Shown here: positions 7,620 through 32,815 of the stretch, piece after piece
Layout: every line of letters begins with the position of its first letter
Position numbering within the stretch: position 1 is the first letter of the stretch
DNA from: Magnetococcales bacterium
GTDB lineage: Bacteria; Pseudomonadota; Magnetococcia; Magnetococcales; Magnetaquicoccaceae
Direction of reading: 5' to 3'
Length of the DNA stretch: 40,035 nucleotides
Assembly (NCBI GenBank): GCA_015231295.1
Contig: JADGBU010000005.1
Location: forward strand, 1-40,035
Made by a program: the position numbers and the translations under genes
The notes under the pieces: model-generated
What the model was told of the DNA's origin: nothing
Seen by the model: only the letters and a program-made list of their open reading frames with translations
Databases searched by the model: none

Positions 7620-8978
7620 CTACAGATCCAATCCTTTTTTCTTGATCAAACGGACATTGTTGGCCCGATAGGTTTCGTTGCGTCCCGGATAGACCTCGAA
7701 CTCGATATGATCCCCCGGACCCGGGACATGCTCAGGATCGGTCAACTCCGAAACGTGAATGTAAACGCTGTTGCGCTTGCACTTGGCGAATCCATAGCCT
7801 TTTTCCGGAAAATAGACCGTCACCACCGCATGTTCGATGGCCCCGATCACCAGATTTTCCCCCATATCCCCCTGAAGGCTCTGAAGATCGTTCTGCCGGG
7901 TGATCTGCAAGGCGATCAACCCTTCGGACTCCGAGCCCGAACCGGCGGAAAACTCCACCAGATCATCGACCCGCATTCCGGAGTACTGCACCTCCTGGGT
8001 CAGGATGAAAAACCGGATCGGCTTGGCATCGTGATCGCGAATGGCGATGAAGCCACTGCCATCTTCCGCCAGCGACTCGACCCGCCCCTGGAAGCGACTG
8101 CCCAACACCAGCACCGAACAGGCCTGGGGACGCCCCTCCTTGCCCGGCTTGATGACGAACTGAACGTGATCGTTCTCGAACACCGGCACCTGATGAATCA
8201 CGTAGGTCATATGGAAATAAATTTCCTGATACTCGTGATTATCCGAATAATATTGAATAAATCCGAATCCCCGTTCCTTCTTGAAAGCGGAGACCTTGCC
8301 AAAATAGGGCCGTGACTGAATCGGCTCCTCCTCGACCTGAGCGCGATTGATCTCGACGGGGGAAGCGGTGATGTACTCCCCCGGATTGGCCTGCCAGTGG
8401 ATCGCCAACCGCTTGATGGGTGCGGCCACCCCGGTCATGCGGAACGGCGGCATCTCCTGGAGATAATCGACGAAAGGCCGGTTGACCAACTCTCCGGCCC
8501 GGGAACGGAAGGGAAAATCGTGGGCCACGATGGGATCGGGATGATGCAGCAAAATGGCATGTCCCCTGGCCTGCTCGCAAAGCTGCTGGGCCATGTCGCT
8601 GGCGATGCCCAGATAGTCGATCCGTTTGCCATCGTTCCAGTGGAGGGCAAAGACCTCTCCCGTGGCGATGCCGACACCACAGGAGAGACCATATGCGGGA
8701 TATCGACGCCGCTCCAGGAGATGCTCCTGGAGGTCGATGGCCGCCTGAACCGCGTCTCCGGGATGACGAAAGACACACATCACCCCGGAAGCCAGACATT
8801 TGACGAACTTGCCATTGTGCCGATTCGCCTGGAGCAGGACCGCCTGATAGAATCCGGCGTGAAGCTCGGCCCATTCGAGGACCGGGCGACCATCCTTGTA
8901 CTGTTCCGCGTTATGAATTCTGGCACACAGAAAGCTCTTGACGACCGATTCGAGGCCAATATCCCGCGTGTGACTCAT
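7620..8978 (-). CDS. Degenerate class III nucleotide cyclase-like domain fused to cold-shock-like domain repeats
   Basis: N-terminal cyclase fold pattern ([33 protein letters not shown]); C-terminal [84 protein letters not shown] resemble cold-shock OB folds. Confidence 0.75.
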
Positions 8979-19371: not shown

Positions 19372-19786
19372 TCAAACCTTAGCCAAAAGTAATTGATTTG
19401 CGTCAAGCACCGCATCGATACAGCTTCGTTTCAGCTTACGAATGGTGTCCTCTTTCGCCTTCGTCTCCCGGTCATTTTCGCCATGACGATCGTCTCCAGC
19501 GCGTCGGATTGACCGGAATCACAGAAATAAACATATTTATTTACAGACAGATACCACATTCACACCTCTCTTGTCTCGTCCCACCACCACCACCGGAGTC
19601 GATCGAAACCGCCCGTTCCCCTGGAAACACGGCATGGACAAACCCGGACACTTCCGGTAGGATACAAAGTTGACATCATACAACCAATCATCCGGATCCA
19701 CTGCCGGGCGAAGCCGCATCGACCACGGCTCGATCGTACCGAAACATCGGCTTGCGCAGGCATCAACGCAAGGTTTTTCCGCACGC

Positions 19787-22075
19787 ATGAATACCGTCAG
19801 CTTCGTCACCTATCTGACCCGTGACATGGAATTGATGCCGGTAGGGGTTCTGACCCTGGCCGCTCTGACCCGTCAGCAGGGTTGGGATGTCACCATCGAG
19901 GATCTGCCCCGGTTTGACGACGAATCGGCTTTGGTACGCACGCTCTCCAAACGTCAGGTAGTCGGTTTCAGCACGCTTTGTTCCACCTTTCACCGCTCCT
20001 TGCGGCTGGCGAGTCAGATCAAGGCCCTCAATCCCCAGGTGCTGCTGGTGATGGGCGGGCCACAGGCTTCGGCGGTAGCGGTATCGTTGCTGCAACGTCA
20101 CGCCTGCGTGGATCTGATCTTTCGCGGCGAGGCGGAAGCGGGCTGGGCCGCCTTTCTGGAAGGCAAACCGTGGTCGGAGATTCCCGGTCTGGTCTATCGT
20201 CACCAGAATGCCGTGCAGGAGACGCCACCCGCTCCCCTGCTCATGGATCTCGATCAACTGCCCTTTCCCGCCTTCGATCTCTACCCCGCCACCGGCCTGA
20301 GCATTCCGCTGGAAACCGGACGCGGTTGTCCTTTCGCTTGCACCTATTGTTCCACCAATCGTTATTTTTCCCGCCGGTTCCGGGCCAAGAGTCCGGCGCG
20401 GATTCTGGCCGAAATGGATCAGTTGAATCGACTTTACGGCGTCCGCGCCTTCGATCTCATCGAGGACTCCTTCACCACCAATCGCCGCAAGATTCTGGAA
20501 TTTTGCGACGCCATCGCACTTCACTCCCCGGCCTACTCCTGGAACATCAGTGCCCGTCCCGATCAGGTCGATGACGAACTGCTGGGGCGGCTGCGTCAAT
20601 CGGGATGCCGGGGCATTTTTTTCGGCATCGAAACCGGCTCGCAACGGTTGCAGAAGGTGGTGAAGAAAAATTTGCGGGTGGCTCCCGCCATGGAAAATAT
20701 CGCCCAGGCGCGCCATTCCGGTTTGATGGTCACGGCGTCGTTCATCATCGGCTTTCCCGACGAAACCGAAACCGATCTCCGGGAGACCTTGCGGGTCTTC
20801 GGCATTCTGAACGGCTATCGGGAGATGGTGTTGCAGTTGCATCTGCTTTCACCCCTGGCCGGATCGGCTCTGGTCGCCGCCCAAACCGAACTGGTCTACG
20901 ACGGCATGCCCACCGATTTCAACGAACTCGACGAAAGCGGCACCCTGACCCTGCTCGATCGGGAACGGTTCCGACAGGAGCCGGAGCTGTTTCCCCACAT
21001 GCACTATTTTCCCAACGCCCATCTGCCCCGTTCCCGTTATCTGTTTCTGGCCTATGTGATCCGGCTGTGCGGCTGGTTTTTCCCCAATTTTCTGCATCAG
21101 GCGTTTCGTCTCTGCCCGGATGCCTGGATCGATCATCTGCTGACCGCTCCGGAACCGCCGGAATGGATCGGCGACGCCTCGTTTCCCAATCCCATGACGC
21201 TCTGGAACGAACGGGGACATGGCGTCTGTCTCGCCTTTGCGCGGCAGGTGCGTCTGCCGATTCTCGATGCGGTGTTGCGCTATGATCAAGCCTATTGCCG
21301 GGTGGCTCTGTTGAAGGAGGAGTCCTCCGGTCTGGTCTCTCTGCCGCGCACGATTTCGGGACGCCCGCCCGGACGCCTGCTTCCCGAACTCTCTCCGGAA
21401 GCCTTCGAAGAGATGGTCCCTTGCATGATGAGTCGCGACAGCTCGGGCCGGATCGATGTCGCGGTGGTGCTGACCCCCGAAGAGATGGAACAACGTCTGC
21501 AAGAACTGTGCGGCACCTGCGGCGAATGCTGTCTGGATGAGGATGGCTTGATGTGCGGCGTCGAGGAGTGGAGCACGATCGCCCAATTTCTGGAGAGTCA
21601 TCACCAGGCGATTCCCGGCATCACGCCGACGGCGTGGCAAGGGTTGGTGCTGGAAGAGGGATGCCGTTATCTGGCGCATCCCATCGACGGTCCGCGCACG
21701 CTGCACGACAGCCGCGAGGCGGCGCGACTGGCCGCCGGAGAGCAAGGATGGGTACGTCATGCCTGCGCCCATCTGGAGGTGACGGGCGAAGCGGAAACGG
21801 AAAGATTCCAGTGTGCCATTCAGTCGGTCAAGCCTGCCGAATGCGTGGCCTACCCTTATCGGCCCATGGGGGACGGGGGGCAACGGTGGCATCTGGAGCC
21901 GGTGGAAGGCAGAGTCGATCGACGTTGCGCGCTGATTCGGCTGTTGCGGGAAAAGGCGGTCTTTCGTCAGCAATATCTGGAGTGGGCCAGAAGCCGCATG
22001 GGACAACGATCGGGGGCCGTGGCTCTGGGGCGGTTGCATGCCGAAGAGGCCAACGATCTGGAACGTCGGGCGTAA
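19787..22075 (+). CDS. B12-binding-domain radical SAM protein with C-terminal YkgJ-like CxxCxxCC domain
   Basis: rSAM motif GRGCPFACTYC; N-term PVGVLTLAALTRQQGWDV, LLVMGGPQAS, FRGEAE; C-term CGTCGECC...CAIQSVKPAECVAYPYRP. Confidence 0.88.
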   Translation: MNTVSFVTYLTRDMELMPVGVLTLAALTRQQGWDVTIEDLPRFDDESALVRTLSKRQVVGFSTLCSTFHRSLRLASQIKALNPQVLLVMGGPQASAVAVSLLQRHACVDLIFRGEAEAGWAAFLEGKPWSEIPGLVYRHQNAVQETPPAPLLMDLDQLPFPAFDLYPATGLSIPLETGRGCPFACTYCSTNRYFSRRFRAKSPARILAEMDQLNRLYGVRAFDLIEDSFTTNRRKILEFCDAIALHSPAYSWNISARPDQVDDELLGRLRQSGCRGIFFGIETGSQRLQKVVKKNLRVAPAMENIAQARHSGLMVTASFIIGFPDETETDLRETLRVFGILNGYREMVLQLHLLSPLAGSALVAAQTELVYDGMPTDFNELDESGTLTLLDRERFRQEPELFPHMHYFPNAHLPRSRYLFLAYVIRLCGWFFPNFLHQAFRLCPDAWIDHLLTAPEPPEWIGDASFPNPMTLWNERGHGVCLAFARQVRLPILDAVLRYDQAYCRVALLKEESSGLVSLPRTISGRPPGRLLPELSPEAFEEMVPCMMSRDSSGRIDVAVVLTPEEMEQRLQELCGTCGECCLDEDGLMCGVEEWSTIAQFLESHHQAIPGITPTAWQGLVLEEGCRYLAHPIDGPRTLHDSREAARLAAGEQGWVRHACAHLEVTGEAETERFQCAIQSVKPAECVAYPYRPMGDGGQRWHLEPVEGRVDRRCALIRLLREKAVFRQQYLEWARSRMGQRSGAVALGRLHAEEANDLERRA

Positions 22076-25386: not shown

Positions 25387-25416
25387 TTGACAGCATTCAT
25401 GTCCATCCTCTTTAAT
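25387..25416 (+). promoter_or_regulatory. Strong sigma70-like promoter for the cyclase gene
   Basis: Perfect -35 TTGACA (25387-25392), 18-nt spacer, TTTAAT (25411-25416). Confidence 0.55.
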
Positions 25417-25464
25417 GGAATTATTGCCCTCACAACATCTTTCGAGCATACAGGAATACGCGCG

Positions 25465-28400
25465 GTGAACTGTTCCACTTGCCATCTGGACAACCGTCAA
25501 GGGGTTCGCTATTGCACCCGCTGCGGAACCCCATTGGTTGCCATCTGCCCCCAGTGCCATGCGGCACGCGCCGTGGACGACAACTATTGCGGCGAATGCG
25601 GCATCCGCCTGCCGACCGCATCGACCAACCGCGCGCTGCCCCAGGTGGCGTTGCCGACGAACGGATTCACCACGACTCCGGCGGCACCGGTGGCCATGGA
25701 ATCGGAACGCAAGAATGTCACGGTGCTGTTCGCCGACATTTCGGGCTTCACGGCCATGAGCGAAAAAATGGATCCGGAAGAGGTGACGAACATCATGAAC
25801 GGCTGCATGAAAATGCTCGCCGATATCGTTCACCGCTACGAAGGGTATGTGGACAAGTTCATCGGGGATTGCATCATGGCCCTGTTCGGTGCCCCCATGA
25901 CCCACGAAAACGATCCGGAACTGGCCCTGCGCGCCGCCCTCGACATGCAAAAGGAGATGGAAGAGTACAATGTGCGCCTCCAGGGCCGCATCGAAAGTCC
26001 GCTGACGCTCCATACCGGCATCAACTCCGGCATGGTGATCGCGGGGGGCGTGGGCTCGGACAAAAAAATGGAATACACGGTCATGGGCGATACCGTGAAT
26101 CTGGCGGCGCGCCTGGAATCCCTGGCCAAACATGGCCAGACCTTCGTCTCGGGCTACACCTACAACCTTACCCGTCATCTGTTCGAGTTTGTGCGTCACG
26201 ATCCGATCAAGGTCAAGGGCAAAAAAGATCCGGTGGCGGTCTACGAAGTGATCCGTCCCAAAAGCCGCCAGGAGCAGAACAACGATCCGAGCCATGCCGC
26301 CACCCCGCTGGTGGGCCGGGGCCGGGAGATGGAAACCCTGCGCAACTGCATGGATCGCCATGCCGCCGGACAGGGCCTGGCCGCTTTTCTGATCTCTCCG
26401 GCGGGCGTGGGCAAAAGCCGCATCCATCAGGAAATCAAGAAGCAGTTCCTCAAAGGGGAACGGATTCAGGTGCTGGAAGGCATCTGCCGCTCGTTCAACC
26501 GGGATACCAGTTACGCGGTCTTCATCGAACTGTTCCGTCAGCTCTTCAACATCGACTCCGAGGATCTCGAAGAGTCGATGGCCCACAAGCTCGTGACCAA
26601 CTTTCCGCTGCTGCTCGGCTCCAAAAGCGACTCCTCCACCGAGGAGATGCGCAAGGCCATGGTCTTCATCGGCGCGGCCATGGGACTGAAACTCGGCGCG
26701 GAGTACGATGTGCCCCTGGAACGCATGAGCGCGCAAGAGGTGAAACTGGGCATTTTCCGGGCCACCGCGTGGTTTTTACAGAATCTGGCGGCCCGCAAAC
26801 CCCTGATCCTCGCGCTGGAGGATCTCCATCTGGCGGATGCCACCTCCGTGGAGCTGATCGCCTCCCTGTTCGAAAGCCTCAAGCAGGCTCCGATCCTGCT
26901 GTTGCTCCTGATGCGTCCGGTCTCCGACCACCCCTCGAACAAGCTCCCGCTGATCGCCGACAAGGAACTCGACGATCTGGCGATCGAAATTCACTTCAAG
27001 CAGCTCACCCCCGCCGAGTGCGATGAATTGACCCGTCGTCTGCTCAACGCCGACGACGTGCCGGAATCGATCCTCCATCTGATCCGCAATCGCGGCGATG
27101 GCAATCCGATGTTCATCGAGGAGATCATCCGCAATCTGGTGGAAGAGGGAATCGTCGAACTGATCCCCGGCGAAGCCCCGAGAGTGATCAAAAATCTCGA
27201 CGAGGTGACGATTCCCTCTTCGATTCAGGGCATGTTCATCGCCCGCATCGACAAGCTGCCGGTGGATCTCAAGGAGGTGCTGCTCACCGCCGCCGTGATC
27301 GGACCGCTGTTCCGTCTGGCCCTGCTGGCGCGCCTCTTTCCCAACAGCGAACTGGAAGTCCGTCTGGCCCGTCTGGTGGAGATGGGATTGATCTTCGAAT
27401 CCAAATCCTTCCCGGAGATCGAATACAGCTTCCGCAACATCATGATCCAGGAGGCGATCTACTCCACGCTGCTGCACAAGAAGCGTCGCGAGCTGCACGC
27501 CTCGGTCGCCGAGGAGATCGAATCCCTCTACGCCACCCGTCTCGACGATCACTTCGAAATTCTCGCCCAGCACTATCTGCGGGCCGATCACGCGGAGCGG
27601 GCCTATCTCTATCTGGTGAAGAGCGGACTCAAGGCCAAGGAGAGCTACGCCAACAGTGCCGCGCTCGCCGCGCTGGAAAAGGCCGCCGAACTGGGCAAAA
27701 CCCTCTCCACGCCCCCTCTGCCCCTCATCGAGACGCTGGTGGTGCTCTCCGAGGTGCAGGAGTTGTGCGGCGAGTTCTCCCCGGCGATCGCCACCCGCCG
27801 GGAGGTGATCGCCGCCATCGAGGATCCCTTGAGCCGTATCGATCATCTGCGGCGCATCGGTCGTCTGCTGGAAAAACTGGAACAGTACGATCAGGCCATG
27901 ACGGTCTACGGCGAGGCCCACGCGGAGCTGAGCGCCTTTCCGGATTCGATTCCCCTCGGCCTGCTGCTGATGAATGAAAGCTGGATTCTCAACCGTCTCG
28001 GCCAGCGGGACGAGGCCGCCACCCGCGCCCGGCGCGCCCTGGAAATTTTCGAAAATCACAACGCCCGGGAACAGATCGCCATGGTCTGCAACAATCTCGG
28101 GGTGATTCTGGAGCATCAGGGGGATCTGAAACAGGCCCTGACCTTCAACGAAAAGAGTCTGCGCATCTTCTCCGAACTGGGCGACAAACGACAGACCGCC
28201 AATCTTTATCTGTCGATGGGCTTTCTGCACGAAAAGAACGGTGCCATGGGCGAGGCACTGCGCTTTTTCGAGCTTTCCCACGAAATCATGCAGAGAATCG
28301 AAAATCCGTTCGGGGTCGGCACCGCGCTGATGCGCAAAGGCATCTGCCTCAACCGTCTCAACCGCCTGAGCGATGCCGAAAAAGCCCTCAAGGAGGCTCT

Positions 28401-28725
28401 GCGGATCCACCGTCAGCTCAATCTGACCCGCAAGGTGGTCTCCAATCTCTGGACCCTGTGCGAACTCTATCTGGCGTTAGGTTCCGCCTCCAAGGCCCGC
28501 AAGCATATGGAAGAGGCCAAAGTGATCGCCTCCGCGCGGAATGATCTGCCGGATCTGGCCCAGTGCTCGCTGCTGGAGGCGCGCATTCTGCTTCAGGAAC
28601 GGGCCCTCCCGGATGAGGCCTTTCTGGAGGCGGCGCGACTCTATCGGCTGTGTGGCCGCCAGAAATCCGCCGAAGCCGCCGAACAGGAGTTGGAACGCCA
28701 TCGCCAGGGAGAGGCCAAAGCATGA
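25465..28725 (+). CDS. Double zinc ribbon + class III adenylate/guanylate cyclase + AAA ATPase + TPR signalling protein
   Basis: CSTC/CTRC/CPQC/CGEC ribbons; VLFADISGFT, VDKFIGDCIMALFG, YTVMGDTVNLAARLESLA; AAA SPAGVGKSRI; C-terminal TPRs. GTG start at 25465 preferred over 25387. Confidence 0.9.
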   Translation: MNCSTCHLDNRQGVRYCTRCGTPLVAICPQCHAARAVDDNYCGECGIRLPTASTNRALPQVALPTNGFTTTPAAPVAMESERKNVTVLFADISGFTAMSEKMDPEEVTNIMNGCMKMLADIVHRYEGYVDKFIGDCIMALFGAPMTHENDPELALRAALDMQKEMEEYNVRLQGRIESPLTLHTGINSGMVIAGGVGSDKKMEYTVMGDTVNLAARLESLAKHGQTFVSGYTYNLTRHLFEFVRHDPIKVKGKKDPVAVYEVIRPKSRQEQNNDPSHAATPLVGRGREMETLRNCMDRHAAGQGLAAFLISPAGVGKSRIHQEIKKQFLKGERIQVLEGICRSFNRDTSYAVFIELFRQLFNIDSEDLEESMAHKLVTNFPLLLGSKSDSSTEEMRKAMVFIGAAMGLKLGAEYDVPLERMSAQEVKLGIFRATAWFLQNLAARKPLILALEDLHLADATSVELIASLFESLKQAPILLLLLMRPVSDHPSNKLPLIADKELDDLAIEIHFKQLTPAECDELTRRLLNADDVPESILHLIRNRGDGNPMFIEEIIRNLVEEGIVELIPGEAPRVIKNLDEVTIPSSIQGMFIARIDKLPVDLKEVLLTAAVIGPLFRLALLARLFPNSELEVRLARLVEMGLIFESKSFPEIEYSFRNIMIQEAIYSTLLHKKRRELHASVAEEIESLYATRLDDHFEILAQHYLRADHAERAYLYLVKSGLKAKESYANSAALAALEKAAELGKTLSTPPLPLIETLVVLSEVQELCGEFSPAIATRREVIAAIEDPLSRIDHLRRIGRLLEKLEQYDQAMTVYGEAHAELSAFPDSIPLGLLLMNESWILNRLGQRDEAATRARRALEIFENHNAREQIAMVCNNLGVILEHQGDLKQALTFNEKSLRIFSELGDKRQTANLYLSMGFLHEKNGAMGEALRFFELSHEIMQRIENPFGVGTALMRKGICLNRLNRLSDAEKALKEALRIHRQLNLTRKVVSNLWTLCELYLALGSASKARKHMEEAKVIASARNDLPDLAQCSLLEARILLQERALPDEAFLEAARLYRLCGRQKSAEAAEQELERHRQGEAKA

Positions 28726-29954
28726 ACGCCGGTCTCACCGCCTTGACCGTGGATGACGATGCAAGCACCCGTCTGCTGCTCCGCACGATCCTGGAAAAAG
28801 CGGGCTATCGGGTGCTGGAAGAGGAGACCAGTCGCCACGCGCTGGCGCGGATCGAGGCGGAGCGTCCGGATCTGATCCTGCTCGACATCATGATGCCCGG
28901 CATCGACGGTTTGCAGATCTGTCGCACCATCCGCAGTCGTCCGGAGTTCGACCGCTGCAAAGTGGTGATGGTCTCGGCCAAACCCTACGAATTCGACCGG
29001 CAACGGGCGATTCAATTCGGGGCCGACGCCTATTTCCTCAAACCCATCGAGCCGGTCGCCTTTCTCGAAGGGCTGCGTCGGGTCTTCGCCGATGCCATGC
29101 TGTTGCGTTTCTGGGGGGTGCGGGGCACCTTGCCGGTGCCGGGTGCGGAAACCGTCCGCTATGGGGGCAATACCAACTGCGTCACTCTGCATCTCACCAA
29201 GGGGCCGATCTTCATTTTCGACGCCGGAAGCGGCATTCGCAATCTGTCGGATCATCTGCTGGCGGCACGCGCCTTTCCCGTCTCCGGGAAATTTCTCATT
29301 TCCCATCCCCACTGGGATCACATCAACGGTCTGCCGTTTTTCGTGCCGCTCTACATCAAAGGCAACGAATTCGAAATCTGCTGCGTGCCTCAAAACGACG
29401 TCACCACGCGCAAAATGATCTCCGATCAGATGGATGGCGTTTATTTTCCGATCAAGATCAAAGAGTTCAGCTCAAGAGTCTATTTCCGAGACCTGCACGA
29501 GGAGTGCTGGGAGGTGGGACATGGTGCCACGGTCTCCACCATGCTGCTCAATCATCCGGGAGCCTGCCTGGGCTATCGGGTGGACTACGGCGGACGCAAG
29601 GTCGCCTACATCCCCGATCATGAACTGCCCCCGTCGGACCATCCCCACTACAATCCGGATTATGAAGCCCGTCTGATCCGTTTCGTGGCGCAGAGCGACA
29701 TTCTGATCATGGATGCCACCTTCAACGCCGAACAATATGCCCGACAGATGGGACATGGCCACTCCAGCGCGGTGCAGGCGGCGAAACTGGCCCATCGGGC
29801 CGGCGTGAAGACCCTCTGTCTGCACCATCACGATCCGGAGCAGACCGACGATCAGATCGACGACAAACTGGAAGAGGCCCGCCAAGTATTGCGTGACCTC
29901 GGCTCCGACACGATCTGTCTGGCTCCGGCGGAGGGGGATTCCCTCACCATCTGA
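28722..29954 (+). CDS. Response-regulator receiver fused to metallo-beta-lactamase-fold hydrolase
   Basis: TVDDDAS...LILLDIMMPGIDG...VSAKP...LKP receiver; FWGVRGTLPVPGAETVRYGGNT, SHPHWDHINGLP, IPDHE, GHGHSS, LHHHDP. ATGA overlap with cyclase gene. Confidence 0.9.
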   Translation: MNAGLTALTVDDDASTRLLLRTILEKAGYRVLEEETSRHALARIEAERPDLILLDIMMPGIDGLQICRTIRSRPEFDRCKVVMVSAKPYEFDRQRAIQFGADAYFLKPIEPVAFLEGLRRVFADAMLLRFWGVRGTLPVPGAETVRYGGNTNCVTLHLTKGPIFIFDAGSGIRNLSDHLLAARAFPVSGKFLISHPHWDHINGLPFFVPLYIKGNEFEICCVPQNDVTTRKMISDQMDGVYFPIKIKEFSSRVYFRDLHEECWEVGHGATVSTMLLNHPGACLGYRVDYGGRKVAYIPDHELPPSDHPHYNPDYEARLIRFVAQSDILIMDATFNAEQYARQMGHGHSSAVQAAKLAHRAGVKTLCLHHHDPEQTDDQIDDKLEEARQVLRDLGSDTICLAPAEGDSLTI

Positions 29955-30019
29955 TTGAATGGCGAGGGTCCGGAGACGATCCTCGCCCCCCGGCCCCCCT
30001 TGCCTCCGGCAGAAACGTC

Positions 30020-30064
30020 CCAAGGGCTTCGTCCCTGGACCCACCAGGGGGATAATCCCCCTGG
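30020..30064. repeat. Module-B double hairpin
   Basis: CCAAGGGC(TTC)GTCCCTGG and CCAGGGGGAT(A)ATCCCCCTGG between convergent genes. Confidence 0.65.
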
Positions 30065-30077
30065 CCCCCTGAAAGGA

Positions 30078-30995
30078 TCACGGCTCTTCGGGCTGTTCCA
30101 GCAACTGTTTCACCTGTTCGCGCAACCAGATGTTGGGCGGACTCTTTTCGGTGCGGGGATGCCAGGCGATGGCCATGCGCAACGAAGGGGTGCTCACCGG
30201 CACCGGAGCCACCCGCAAGCCAAGAGGCTTGGCCAACTGACGCGCCACCCGATCCGGCAACACCGCCATGACATCGCTCTGGGCCACCATGAAGGGAATG
30301 ACCCCCAAAGAGTACATCCGCGCCTTGATGGAACGCGAACGACCCAGATTGGCCAACGCCTCGTCCACCACGGTACTGGTCATGCCACGGGGATAGAAAT
30401 GGACATGATCCGCCGCCAGGAAGGATTCCAGGGTCAATTTTCCATCCGGCACCAGGGGGTGATTCTGGCGATAGATGCAGGCGAACTGCATCTGAAACAC
30501 CCGATGCAGCAGAATGTTCGGCGGCACCCACTGAAACCGGCTGAAGACCAGATCCGCCGCTCCGCTCTCCAGCACGGTGCGTTCCTCCTCGCCGCCGATA
30601 TCCACCAGTTCCACGGCGACCCCCGGCGCTTTTTGACGCAACAGTTCCACCAGCGGTGCCAACAACAACACCGAGGCATAATCCACCATGCCGATGCGAA
30701 ACAGATGCTGCGCGTGAATCGGGTCGAAACGCTCCTGATTGAGGGCTTGTCGCACCTCTCTCAGGGCCCGCTCCACCGGTCCGGCCAACTCCAGGGCCCG
30801 AGCGGTGGGTTCCATGCGCAACCCGATCTTGACGAACAACGGATCATCGAAAATATCCCGCAACCGTCTGAGGGTATTGCTCATGGCGGCCTGGGTGATT
30901 CCCAAGCGTCGTCCCGCCCGGGTCACACCCCGCTCGGTCATCAGCACGTCGAAGGCGACCAGAAGGTTCAAGTCAAACCGTACCAGATCATGCAT
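30078..30995 (-). CDS. LysR-family transcriptional regulator
   Basis: FDLNLLVAFDVLMTERGVTRAGRRLGITQAAMSNTLRRLRDIFDDPLFVK HTH plus substrate-binding domain; ATG at 30995 or 31013. Confidence 0.93.
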   Translation of the reverse strand: MHDLVRFDLNLLVAFDVLMTERGVTRAGRRLGITQAAMSNTLRRLRDIFDDPLFVKIGLRMEPTARALELAGPVERALREVRQALNQERFDPIHAQHLFRIGMVDYASVLLLAPLVELLRQKAPGVAVELVDIGGEEERTVLESGAADLVFSRFQWVPPNILLHRVFQMQFACIYRQNHPLVPDGKLTLESFLAADHVHFYPRGMTSTVVDEALANLGRSRSIKARMYSLGVIPFMVAQSDVMAVLPDRVARQLAKPLGLRVAPVPVSTPSLRMAIAWHPRTEKSPPNIWLREQVKQLLEQPEEP

Positions 30996-31045
30996 GGGGG
31001 GCTCCCCTTTCACCGATTAAAATACCACTGATTCCGAATCGAAAT

Positions 31046-31073
31046 TTGCACCCGTGCCATTTTTCAATATAAT
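31046..31073 (+). promoter_or_regulatory. Candidate promoter for a plus-strand transcript
   Basis: TTGCAC (31046-31051), 16-nt spacer, perfect TATAAT (31068-31073). Confidence 0.35.
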
Positions 31074-31079
31074 CCACAC

Positions 31080-31228
31080 TGTTTATGAATACAAATTTCA
31101 ATCTGGATTTCCTTGATTTCTTGGCCAGGCAGCACCAGGCGGCTTTGTCTCCCGGTGCGGTCGCGGATCGATGGGTATGACGGCTCTCCCCCCTCTGAGA
31201 CCCAATACCCGTCGATCCGTTTTTTTTT
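31080..31228 (+). ncRNA. Candidate small RNA, divergent from the LysR gene
   Basis: Perfect -10 upstream, strong hairpin plus T9 at 31164-31228, no plausible plus-strand CDS between. Confidence 0.35.
31164..31228 (+). terminator. Rho-independent terminator on the plus strand
   Basis: Arms CGGATCGATGGGTAT / ATACCCGTCGATCCG (one G-T wobble) then T9 at 31220-31228. Confidence 0.65.
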
Positions 31229-31247
31229 GCTTTTCGTGTCCCATCGT

Positions 31248-31880
31248 TCAGAACGGCCACAGGCTCCATCCTCCCGACTCCTCCTCCTTGCGACAGCGCG
31301 CCAACTGTTCCCGATAGCGGATTGCGTTTTTTTCCACCCGCTTGGCGGTTTCCAGCAGCCATCCTTTTTTCAGATAGCTTTTGCGATTGAACCCCTGCTG
31401 CCCCTCGTGATAGGCCAAATATTGCTGACGGACATCGGTTTTGGCGATGCCACACTTTCGGTGGCTCAGATCCACATACCAGCCGATGAAATCCACGGCA
31501 TCGGCGAAGTTGTCCCGATCGGCCCATCGGGATCCGGTATTTTTTTTATAGCTCTCCCAGGTTTCGTCCAGGGCCTGGGCATAACCGAACGCGCTGGAAG
31601 GCCGAGGACCGGGAATGAACCAGAACAGACGCGATCGGGCCGGTTTGGCGTCGTGTTTGAATCGGGACTCCTGATGGATGATCGCCAGTTGCACATGAAC
31701 CGGCACTCCCCATTTTTTCCAGACCTTGCGGGTATCGTCGTACCAGCTTCCCTGATCTTCGAAGATGGCGCAGGCGTCATCGGTACGCTGGATGGTCGGG
31801 GCGGTGGCGCATCCGGCCAGCAGCGCGCAGCCCAGCAACACCCCCCGAAGCGGCCAGAACAGGCTTCGTCGCACCGGCAT
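31248..31880 (-). CDS. Lytic transglycosylase (SLT-like) lipoprotein
   Basis: Lipobox CALLAGC; VQLAIIHQESRF, SSAFGYAQALDETW; ATG at 31880 preceded by GGAGGT and overlapping the upstream stop as TGATG. Confidence 0.82.
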   Translation of the reverse strand: MPVRRSLFWPLRGVLLGCALLAGCATAPTIQRTDDACAIFEDQGSWYDDTRKVWKKWGVPVHVQLAIIHQESRFKHDAKPARSRLFWFIPGPRPSSAFGYAQALDETWESYKKNTGSRWADRDNFADAVDFIGWYVDLSHRKCGIAKTDVRQQYLAYHEGQQGFNRKSYLKKGWLLETAKRVEKNAIRYREQLARCRKEEESGGWSLWPF

Positions 31881-32815
31881 CAACCTCCAAACCACATTTT
31901 GCCTTCCATGTGTTCGAGTTTGATGCGGGCGATGTTGAGCGGCGAGAGTCGGTTGACCAGGGTCAGGGCCATGCCCCAGTAGAACTTGAGCCGGAACAAG
32001 GGCTCCAGCGCCTGCAACTCGGCCAGCGAGATCCGCACTCCTTCACAGGCTTCCACCGCGACCAGATTGGCTTGATGGAGGCCATCCCTGAAGAAGCTGT
32101 CGAGTCCGAGCAGCCGTTCCGGTCCCATGTTGACCAGCACCAGCGCGGGATCTCGTTGCAGCGTGACCTTGACGCTGCCCTTGAGCAGAATGAAAAAATG
32201 GTCGTAGCGACTCCCTTCCCGATAGAGGTATCCACCGGCGGGAATGGACTCCGGTCCGGGTTTCAGAGTGTGCAACAACCGTTGCTCTTCCGGGGTGAAG
32301 GCGGCGAGCAAAGGAATGCCCGGCAGATAGCCCACCGGACTGGAGACGATTCCCCCGTCGAACTGATCCCGTTCGAGGCTGGCCAGCCGGAACAGGGTAT
32401 CGTGAAGAGTGGCCTTGCGACCGATCACGTCGGCGAGGAGATTGTGATAGATTTTGAGCAGCAGTTCCGGGGGATAGCCATGGCTCTGTTCGAAATCGAA
32501 GCGCAACACCAGCCCCGGTTCCGAAGCGATGACGCTGGCGGTGCGGGGTTGTCCCGTGAACCAGGCGATTTCGCCGCAAAAACTGCCGGAGTGGAGCACC
32601 CCCAAAGGCAGATTGGGTTGGGTGCGCTTGACCACCTGAAACGCCCCTTGCAACAACAGCCACATATCCCGATCGGTATCCCCTTCGCGGATCAGCACCT
32701 CGCCGGTTTCGACCCGTCTGACCCCCATGCGATCGGAACACAACACCGCCCGCTCCCCATCGGTGAACTCCTGGGGAAAATGCAAGGCTTCCAGAATGAG
32801 TTGACAATGATTCAT
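31880..32815 (-). CDS. Tandem cyclic-nucleotide-binding (CNB) domain protein
   Basis: Two CNB-like segments: GEVLIREGDTDRDMWLLLQGAFQVV...GSFCGEIAWFTGQPRTASV and GGYLYREGSRYDHFFILLKGSVKVTL...; no HTH. Confidence 0.82.
   Translation of the reverse strand: MNHCQLILEALHFPQEFTDGERAVLCSDRMGVRRVETGEVLIREGDTDRDMWLLLQGAFQVVKRTQPNLPLGVLHSGSFCGEIAWFTGQPRTASVIASEPGLVLRFDFEQSHGYPPELLLKIYHNLLADVIGRKATLHDTLFRLASLERDQFDGGIVSSPVGYLPGIPLLAAFTPEEQRLLHTLKPGPESIPAGGYLYREGSRYDHFFILLKGSVKVTLQRDPALVLVNMGPERLLGLDSFFRDGLHQANLVAVEACEGVRISLAELQALEPLFRLKFYWGMALTLVNRLSPLNIARIKLEHMEGKMWFGG

Follow-up and report, generated by a model that had tools for sequence, protein, structure and literature searches.

A class III cyclase gene overlaps a gene for a receiver-linked MBL-fold hydrolase in a Magnetococcales genus: a candidate operon for the synthesis and breakdown of a cyclic nucleotide

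YhfI of Bacillus subtilis prefers cAMP and cGMP (PMC9117128), and Rv1339 of Mycobacterium tuberculosis, a PF12706 enzyme, reduces the cAMP level of mycobacteria (PMC9293780). Both share with the phage protein Apyc1 the MBL fold, the HxHxDH two-metal site, and the PF12706 domain. In Dictyostelium, phosphodiesterases are fused to regulatory parts: RegA joins a phosphorelay receiver to a phosphodiesterase, and GbpA and GbpB (class IIb MBL proteins with two CNB domains) join an MBL-type cyclic nucleotide phosphodiesterase to regulatory domains (PMC11988041). The MBL fold is also that of RNase Z/ELAC. The catalytic domain of RegA belongs to class I, and its fold is unlike that of the MBL enzymes. 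In the literature that we searched, the coverage of which was incomplete, we found no description of a receiver-MBL phosphodiesterase or of direct two-component control of cAMP breakdown in bacteria.

Here we describe a locus in which a receiver domain is joined to an MBL-fold domain and in which the gene overlaps that of a cyclase. The window (the whole stretch of DNA analysed, 40,035 nucleotides) belongs to a MAG of 3.79 Mb that is 84.65% complete. An initial annotation had described an intact class III cyclase that overlaps a receiver/MBL gene by ATGA, with a two-CNB-domain protein nearby on the opposite strand. Each of these descriptions was borne out, and all three genes carry the named domains:

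25387 to 28725, plus strand: predicted class III (IIIb-type) adenylate cyclase (Pfam; catalytic motifs kept in 20 orthologs).
28722 to 28725, plus strand: ATGA stop/start overlap between the cyclase and RR-MBL genes, read directly in the sequence (the two genes also adjoin or overlap in 7 other genomes).
28722 to 29954, plus strand: RR-MBL, a receiver plus MBL-fold hydrolase of 410 aa (Pfam, invariant columns in 19 relatives, AlphaFold2 models).
31880 to 32815, extendable to 32920, minus strand: tandem CNB protein with two PF00027 stretches (Pfam).

A LysR regulator gene and an SLT_4 lytic transglycosylase gene, both on the minus strand, separate RR-MBL from the CNB gene. Elsewhere in the window, a 452-aa open reading frame (7623-8978, minus strand) has, as judged by eye, two cold-shock-like repeats after an N-terminal region that resembles a degenerate cyclase. 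A B12-binding radical SAM protein with a Cys-rich C-terminal extension is encoded at 19670-22075 (plus strand); its best NCBIfam match, ApyD, falls below the cut-off.

The cyclase gene ends at 28725 and has three candidate starts, TTG at 25387, an in-frame ATG at 25399, and the GTG at 25465 chosen in the initial annotation. Pfam matches lay out the protein as an N-terminal double zinc ribbon (DZR), a cyclase domain (Guanylate_cyc, 1.9e-33), an AAA_16 ATPase, and TPR repeats. The protein has both metal Asp motifs (FADISGF and FIGD) as well as NLAAR, and the corresponding residues (FADISGF, FIGD, and DTVNLA(A/S)R, which hold the two metal Asp and the transition-state Asn/Arg) were kept in 20/20 orthologs compared. 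The protein also has the Lys of VDKFIGD and the Thr of EYTVMGD, which, following the general rule for the class, we take to be the base-specifying positions of class IIIb adenylate cyclases. Judged by these residues, the protein is a class III, IIIb-type adenylate cyclase with a complete catalytic site, and its product would be cAMP. It resembles soluble adenylyl cyclase-like class IIIb cyclases in the order of cyclase, P-loop ATPase, and TPR and in the Lys/Thr specificity pair; it differs from them in having one cyclase domain and an N-terminal double zinc ribbon. The genome encodes 7 cyclases in total.

RR-MBL matches Response_reg (PF00072, 1.6e-26) and Lactamase_B_2 (PF12706, 1.1e-16), with a weak match to PDE8A_N. 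The receiver spans residues 8-115 with D55 as phospho-acceptor, and D11 and D13 (the acidic pair), D55, and K107 are invariant across 19 relatives. The MBL domain (residues 128-410) contains HPHWDH at 195-200, H278, D299, D331, H347, and H369/H370, together with the family signature FWGVRG/YGGNTxC/HHDPxxxD. As read from the sequence, the ligands of a two-metal site and the phospho-acceptor site are complete. AlphaFold2 gave a pLDDT of 86.8 for the whole protein and 92.6 for the MBL domain alone. A paralogous RR-MBL (L054, on contig C84 of the same genome, G000) is 52% identical over the MBL domain and lies near a WD40-repeat protein.

We propose that the cyclase and RR-MBL genes form a two-gene operon of an adenylate cyclase and a phosphorylation-gated atypical class II phosphodiesterase, which would make and remove a cyclic mononucleotide, most likely cAMP; we put the probability of this reading at about 0.58. 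The initial annotation had proposed synthesis, phospho-controlled hydrolysis, and sensing. The first two survive as the likeliest reading, given a genus-conserved operon, complete sites, and an MBL family tied to cyclase and CNB genes in other lineages; sensing by the CNB protein does not. Against the proposed operon stand the closeness of RNase Z by profile and fold, the lower rank of the yeast PDE1 and Apyc1 folds, the failure of the two orthologs to track each other outside the genus, a genome (G031) with the cyclase and no RR-MBL, the rarity of cyclases close to RR-MBLs in other lineages, and three Neomarinimicrobiota genomes with the MBL in which no cyclase was detected.

Which MBL enzymes does the domain resemble? 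In a profile search with an alignment of 33 relatives against solved structures, B. subtilis RNase Z (4e-16) came ahead of BA1088 (1e-9). Among AlphaFold2 fold matches, BA1088/YhfI and RNase Z were about equal and interleaved, with YhfI among the top matches, yeast PDE1 at rank 23, and Apyc1 at rank 43; PhnP-type and arylsulfatase MBLs were found as well. These matches would suit a different substrate, namely that the domain is a phosphodiesterase for RNA ends, 2',3'-cyclic nucleotides, cyclic dinucleotides, or a sugar cyclic phosphate and that the operon joins two signalling pathways. We consider this unlikely, but it is an alternative to be taken seriously. RNase Z is the closest profile, and its HEAT/HST-like positions align with DATF/GHSS of RR-MBL. 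However, the domain scores 75 bits against an NCBIfam RNase Z cut-off of 293, and the flexible arm segment of RNase Z is absent from it in profile alignments. We therefore rejected an RNase Z identity. The initial annotation had allowed that the domain might group with tRNases; it forms instead a family of its own that lacks the arm. A tree with Escherichia coli Rbn and PhnP as outgroups had branches too long to use and supported only the clustering of seven RR-MBLs of the genus (98/92), with that of G032 unplaced.

The typical class II phosphodiesterases (PDE1/CpdP, PF02112) were also rejected, as Pfam gave no match to that family in RR-MBL. RR-MBL has the features by which atypical class II phosphodiesterases are recognized, namely a PF12706 domain that carries HxHxDH and additional metal ligands. 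Fold and motifs place the domain between RNase Z and YhfI, a cAMP/cGMP phosphodiesterase. On the basis of this YhfI/RNase Z-like fold, the activities reported for YhfI and Rv1339, and a score below the RNase Z cut-off, phosphodiesterase chemistry is likely, and the substrate may be a cyclic mononucleotide. The differences from YhfI, Rv1339, and Apyc1 are considerable: identity is ~19%, and RR-MBL has an N-terminal receiver and its own signature. The catalytic Glu that follows HxHxDH in Apyc1 appears to be Pro in RR-MBL, going by the residue numbering in PMC9117128. GbpA and GbpB, compared by description, are controlled through CNB domains where RR-MBL has a receiver.

We found no close phage relatives that would point to an origin from phage Apyc1, and searches of plasmid and phage proteins with RR-MBL returned only MBLs of lower identity or receiver-only matches. 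Pycsar defence was rejected as well: the PADLOC hits were generic cyclase and CNB domains, and the neighbour genes scanned included no Pycsar TIR or TM effector.

We found RR-MBLs in Desulfobacterota, Rhodospirillales, Neomarinimicrobiota, Nitrospinota, and other lineages. Their neighbours there are mixed, class II ribonucleotide reductase and RidA genes being frequent, and few loci (7/76) have a cyclase or CNB gene less than 8 kb away. Also in favour of another substrate, the genes beside RR-MBLs in Rhodospirillales are not cyclases but class II ribonucleotide reductase (14/67) and RidA-like genes (11/73). Rhodospirillales loci in which an RR-MBL adjoins a RidA/YjgF-like gene, a class II ribonucleotide reductase, or both include L069, L083, L106, L114, L117, L125, L128, L129, L133, and L135.

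The wider MBL family is tied to cyclic-nucleotide signalling in other lineages, and this repeated linkage to cyclase and CNB genes argues against another substrate. All 42 genomes tested that have named RR-MBL loci carry a cyclase. In a sample of 398 Pseudomonadota genomes, class III cyclases were present in 97/97 genomes with the MBL family and in 149/301 without it (Fisher 1e-24, kinship uncorrected), and within families MBL-positive genomes had more cyclases (permutation p 5e-5); these p-values serve as guides because ancestry is shared, some cyclase counts are lower bounds (at least ~8), and the within-family table was copied out by hand. A cyclase lay within 6 kb in 14 of 60 sampled MBL regions. 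When 40 regions were compared with matched control sites (same contigs, shifted by ~50 kb), a cyclase lay within 6 kb in 12 versus 1 (p 0.0015), and a CNB gene lay nearby in 8 versus 2 (p 0.09). In Neomarinimicrobiota the link was weaker (cyclase in 61/64 genomes with the MBL versus 67/85; p 0.004), and in three genomes with the MBL no cyclase was detected.

The arrangements in these lineages vary. Nine sampled regions, from a few related families, have a CNB gene immediately before the MBL gene in the same orientation. Among the standalone relatives on rhizobial plasmids, the MBL gene overlaps a cyclase gene in Ensifer, comes 7 bases after a CNB gene in Mesorhizobium, and has cyclases at a distance of 2.7 to 3.4 kb in Sinorhizobium and Rhizobium. 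A CHASE2-cyclase adjoins or overlaps the MBL gene in Ensifer and in genome G349. The CNB-then-MBL pair of rhizobia-like genomes, often with a cyclase within ~5 kb (L267-L274, L277, and L193), looks like a separate cyclic-nucleotide operon. At another locus (L243:5046-7331, minus strand), a member of the same MBL family is fused to a C-terminal GAF domain.

How constant is the pair within its own genus? This RR-MBL was found in 8/11 genomes of the genus, and in 8/8 it comes immediately after the cyclase gene in the same orientation, which is more than chance would give. The junctions are mostly ATGA overlaps and differ slightly in G035 and G033. RR-MBL identity within the genus is 76-78% over the MBL domain (70% in G032). 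Of the other three genomes, G034 is interrupted by a contig end, G027 carries neither gene, and in G031, where a long contig bears the cyclase, we found no RR-MBL and no remnant of one.

Adjacency without a common function, in which RR-MBL was inserted once behind the cyclase in the genus ancestor and retained for expression only, would account for the absence of RR-MBL from G031 and for a pairing confined to one genus. Outside the genus, full-length cyclase orthologs are 47-58% identical and RR-MBLs 47-53% identical over the full protein, and within the order the two do not co-occur as a pair: they lie in different genomes or on different contigs (both in 2, cyclase only in 8, RR-MBL only in 6). 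Since the genes are found apart there, the pairing is a lineage-specific operon and not an obligate partnership. However, adjacency has persisted in 8 genomes, with proteins 67-78% identical, even as the genes downstream rearrange, and cyclase-MBL linkages have arisen independently in other lineages. We consider an accident of insertion improbable.

The tandem CNB gene behaves differently from the pair. Its near end is 1.9 kb from the RR-MBL stop, and it overlaps the SLT_4 transglycosylase gene by a few bases. The first CNB domain has the cNMP-binding cassette (GEIAWFTGQPRTAS), and the second is without it. The gene occurs in 6/11 genomes of the genus, where it travels with a LysR/RND block and has SLT_4 adjacent in 5/6. 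It lies near the pair in three of the eight pair-bearing genomes (G000, G030, and G032) and is absent or distant in the other five: it is at least 12 kb away in G028 and on another contig in G035 and G036, still beside SLT_4 and an RND/MFP pump, and G029 has the pair without it. Thus, when the co-occurrence of the three genes was checked, the cyclase and RR-MBL stayed together and the CNB gene did not. The genome has 23 CNB matches (~20 genes), so that the chance of one lying within 3.2 kb is ~4%; proximity to the pair is not clearly beyond chance. The CNB and SLT_4 genes (31248-32815, minus strand; also L038, L166, L167, and L168) form a conserved block near LysR and an RND/MFP pump. On synteny we rejected the gene as a third member of the unit; it is a neighbour from a different cluster. 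A full three-gene circuit with this protein as dedicated receptor, as first annotated, is highly improbable despite the intact first cassette and the short distance in three genomes, given these ties to other genes and the ~20 other CNB genes.

If the two-gene operon is read as proposed, the cyclase would produce cAMP under the control of its own zinc-ribbon, ATPase, and TPR parts, and RR-MBL would hydrolyse the nucleotide so made. RR-MBL would be switched by an unlinked histidine kinase that phosphorylates D55, and the receptor would probably be another of the genome's CNB proteins. A broader reading, to which we give somewhat less than an even chance, is that receiver-gated MBL phosphodiesterases are widespread in bacteria and degrade 3',5'-cyclic nucleotides under two-component control. 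They would then be a bacterial counterpart of RegA whose catalytic domain has another fold, with a gene that, in this genus, overlaps that of the opposing cyclase.

In bacteria rich in class III cyclases, the route by which cyclic nucleotides are removed is often unknown. The MBL family, linked to receiver, GAF, or CNB domains and tracking cyclases, provides a concrete candidate enzyme for that removal. If this is true, a single operon would hold the "on" and "off" steps of one signal.
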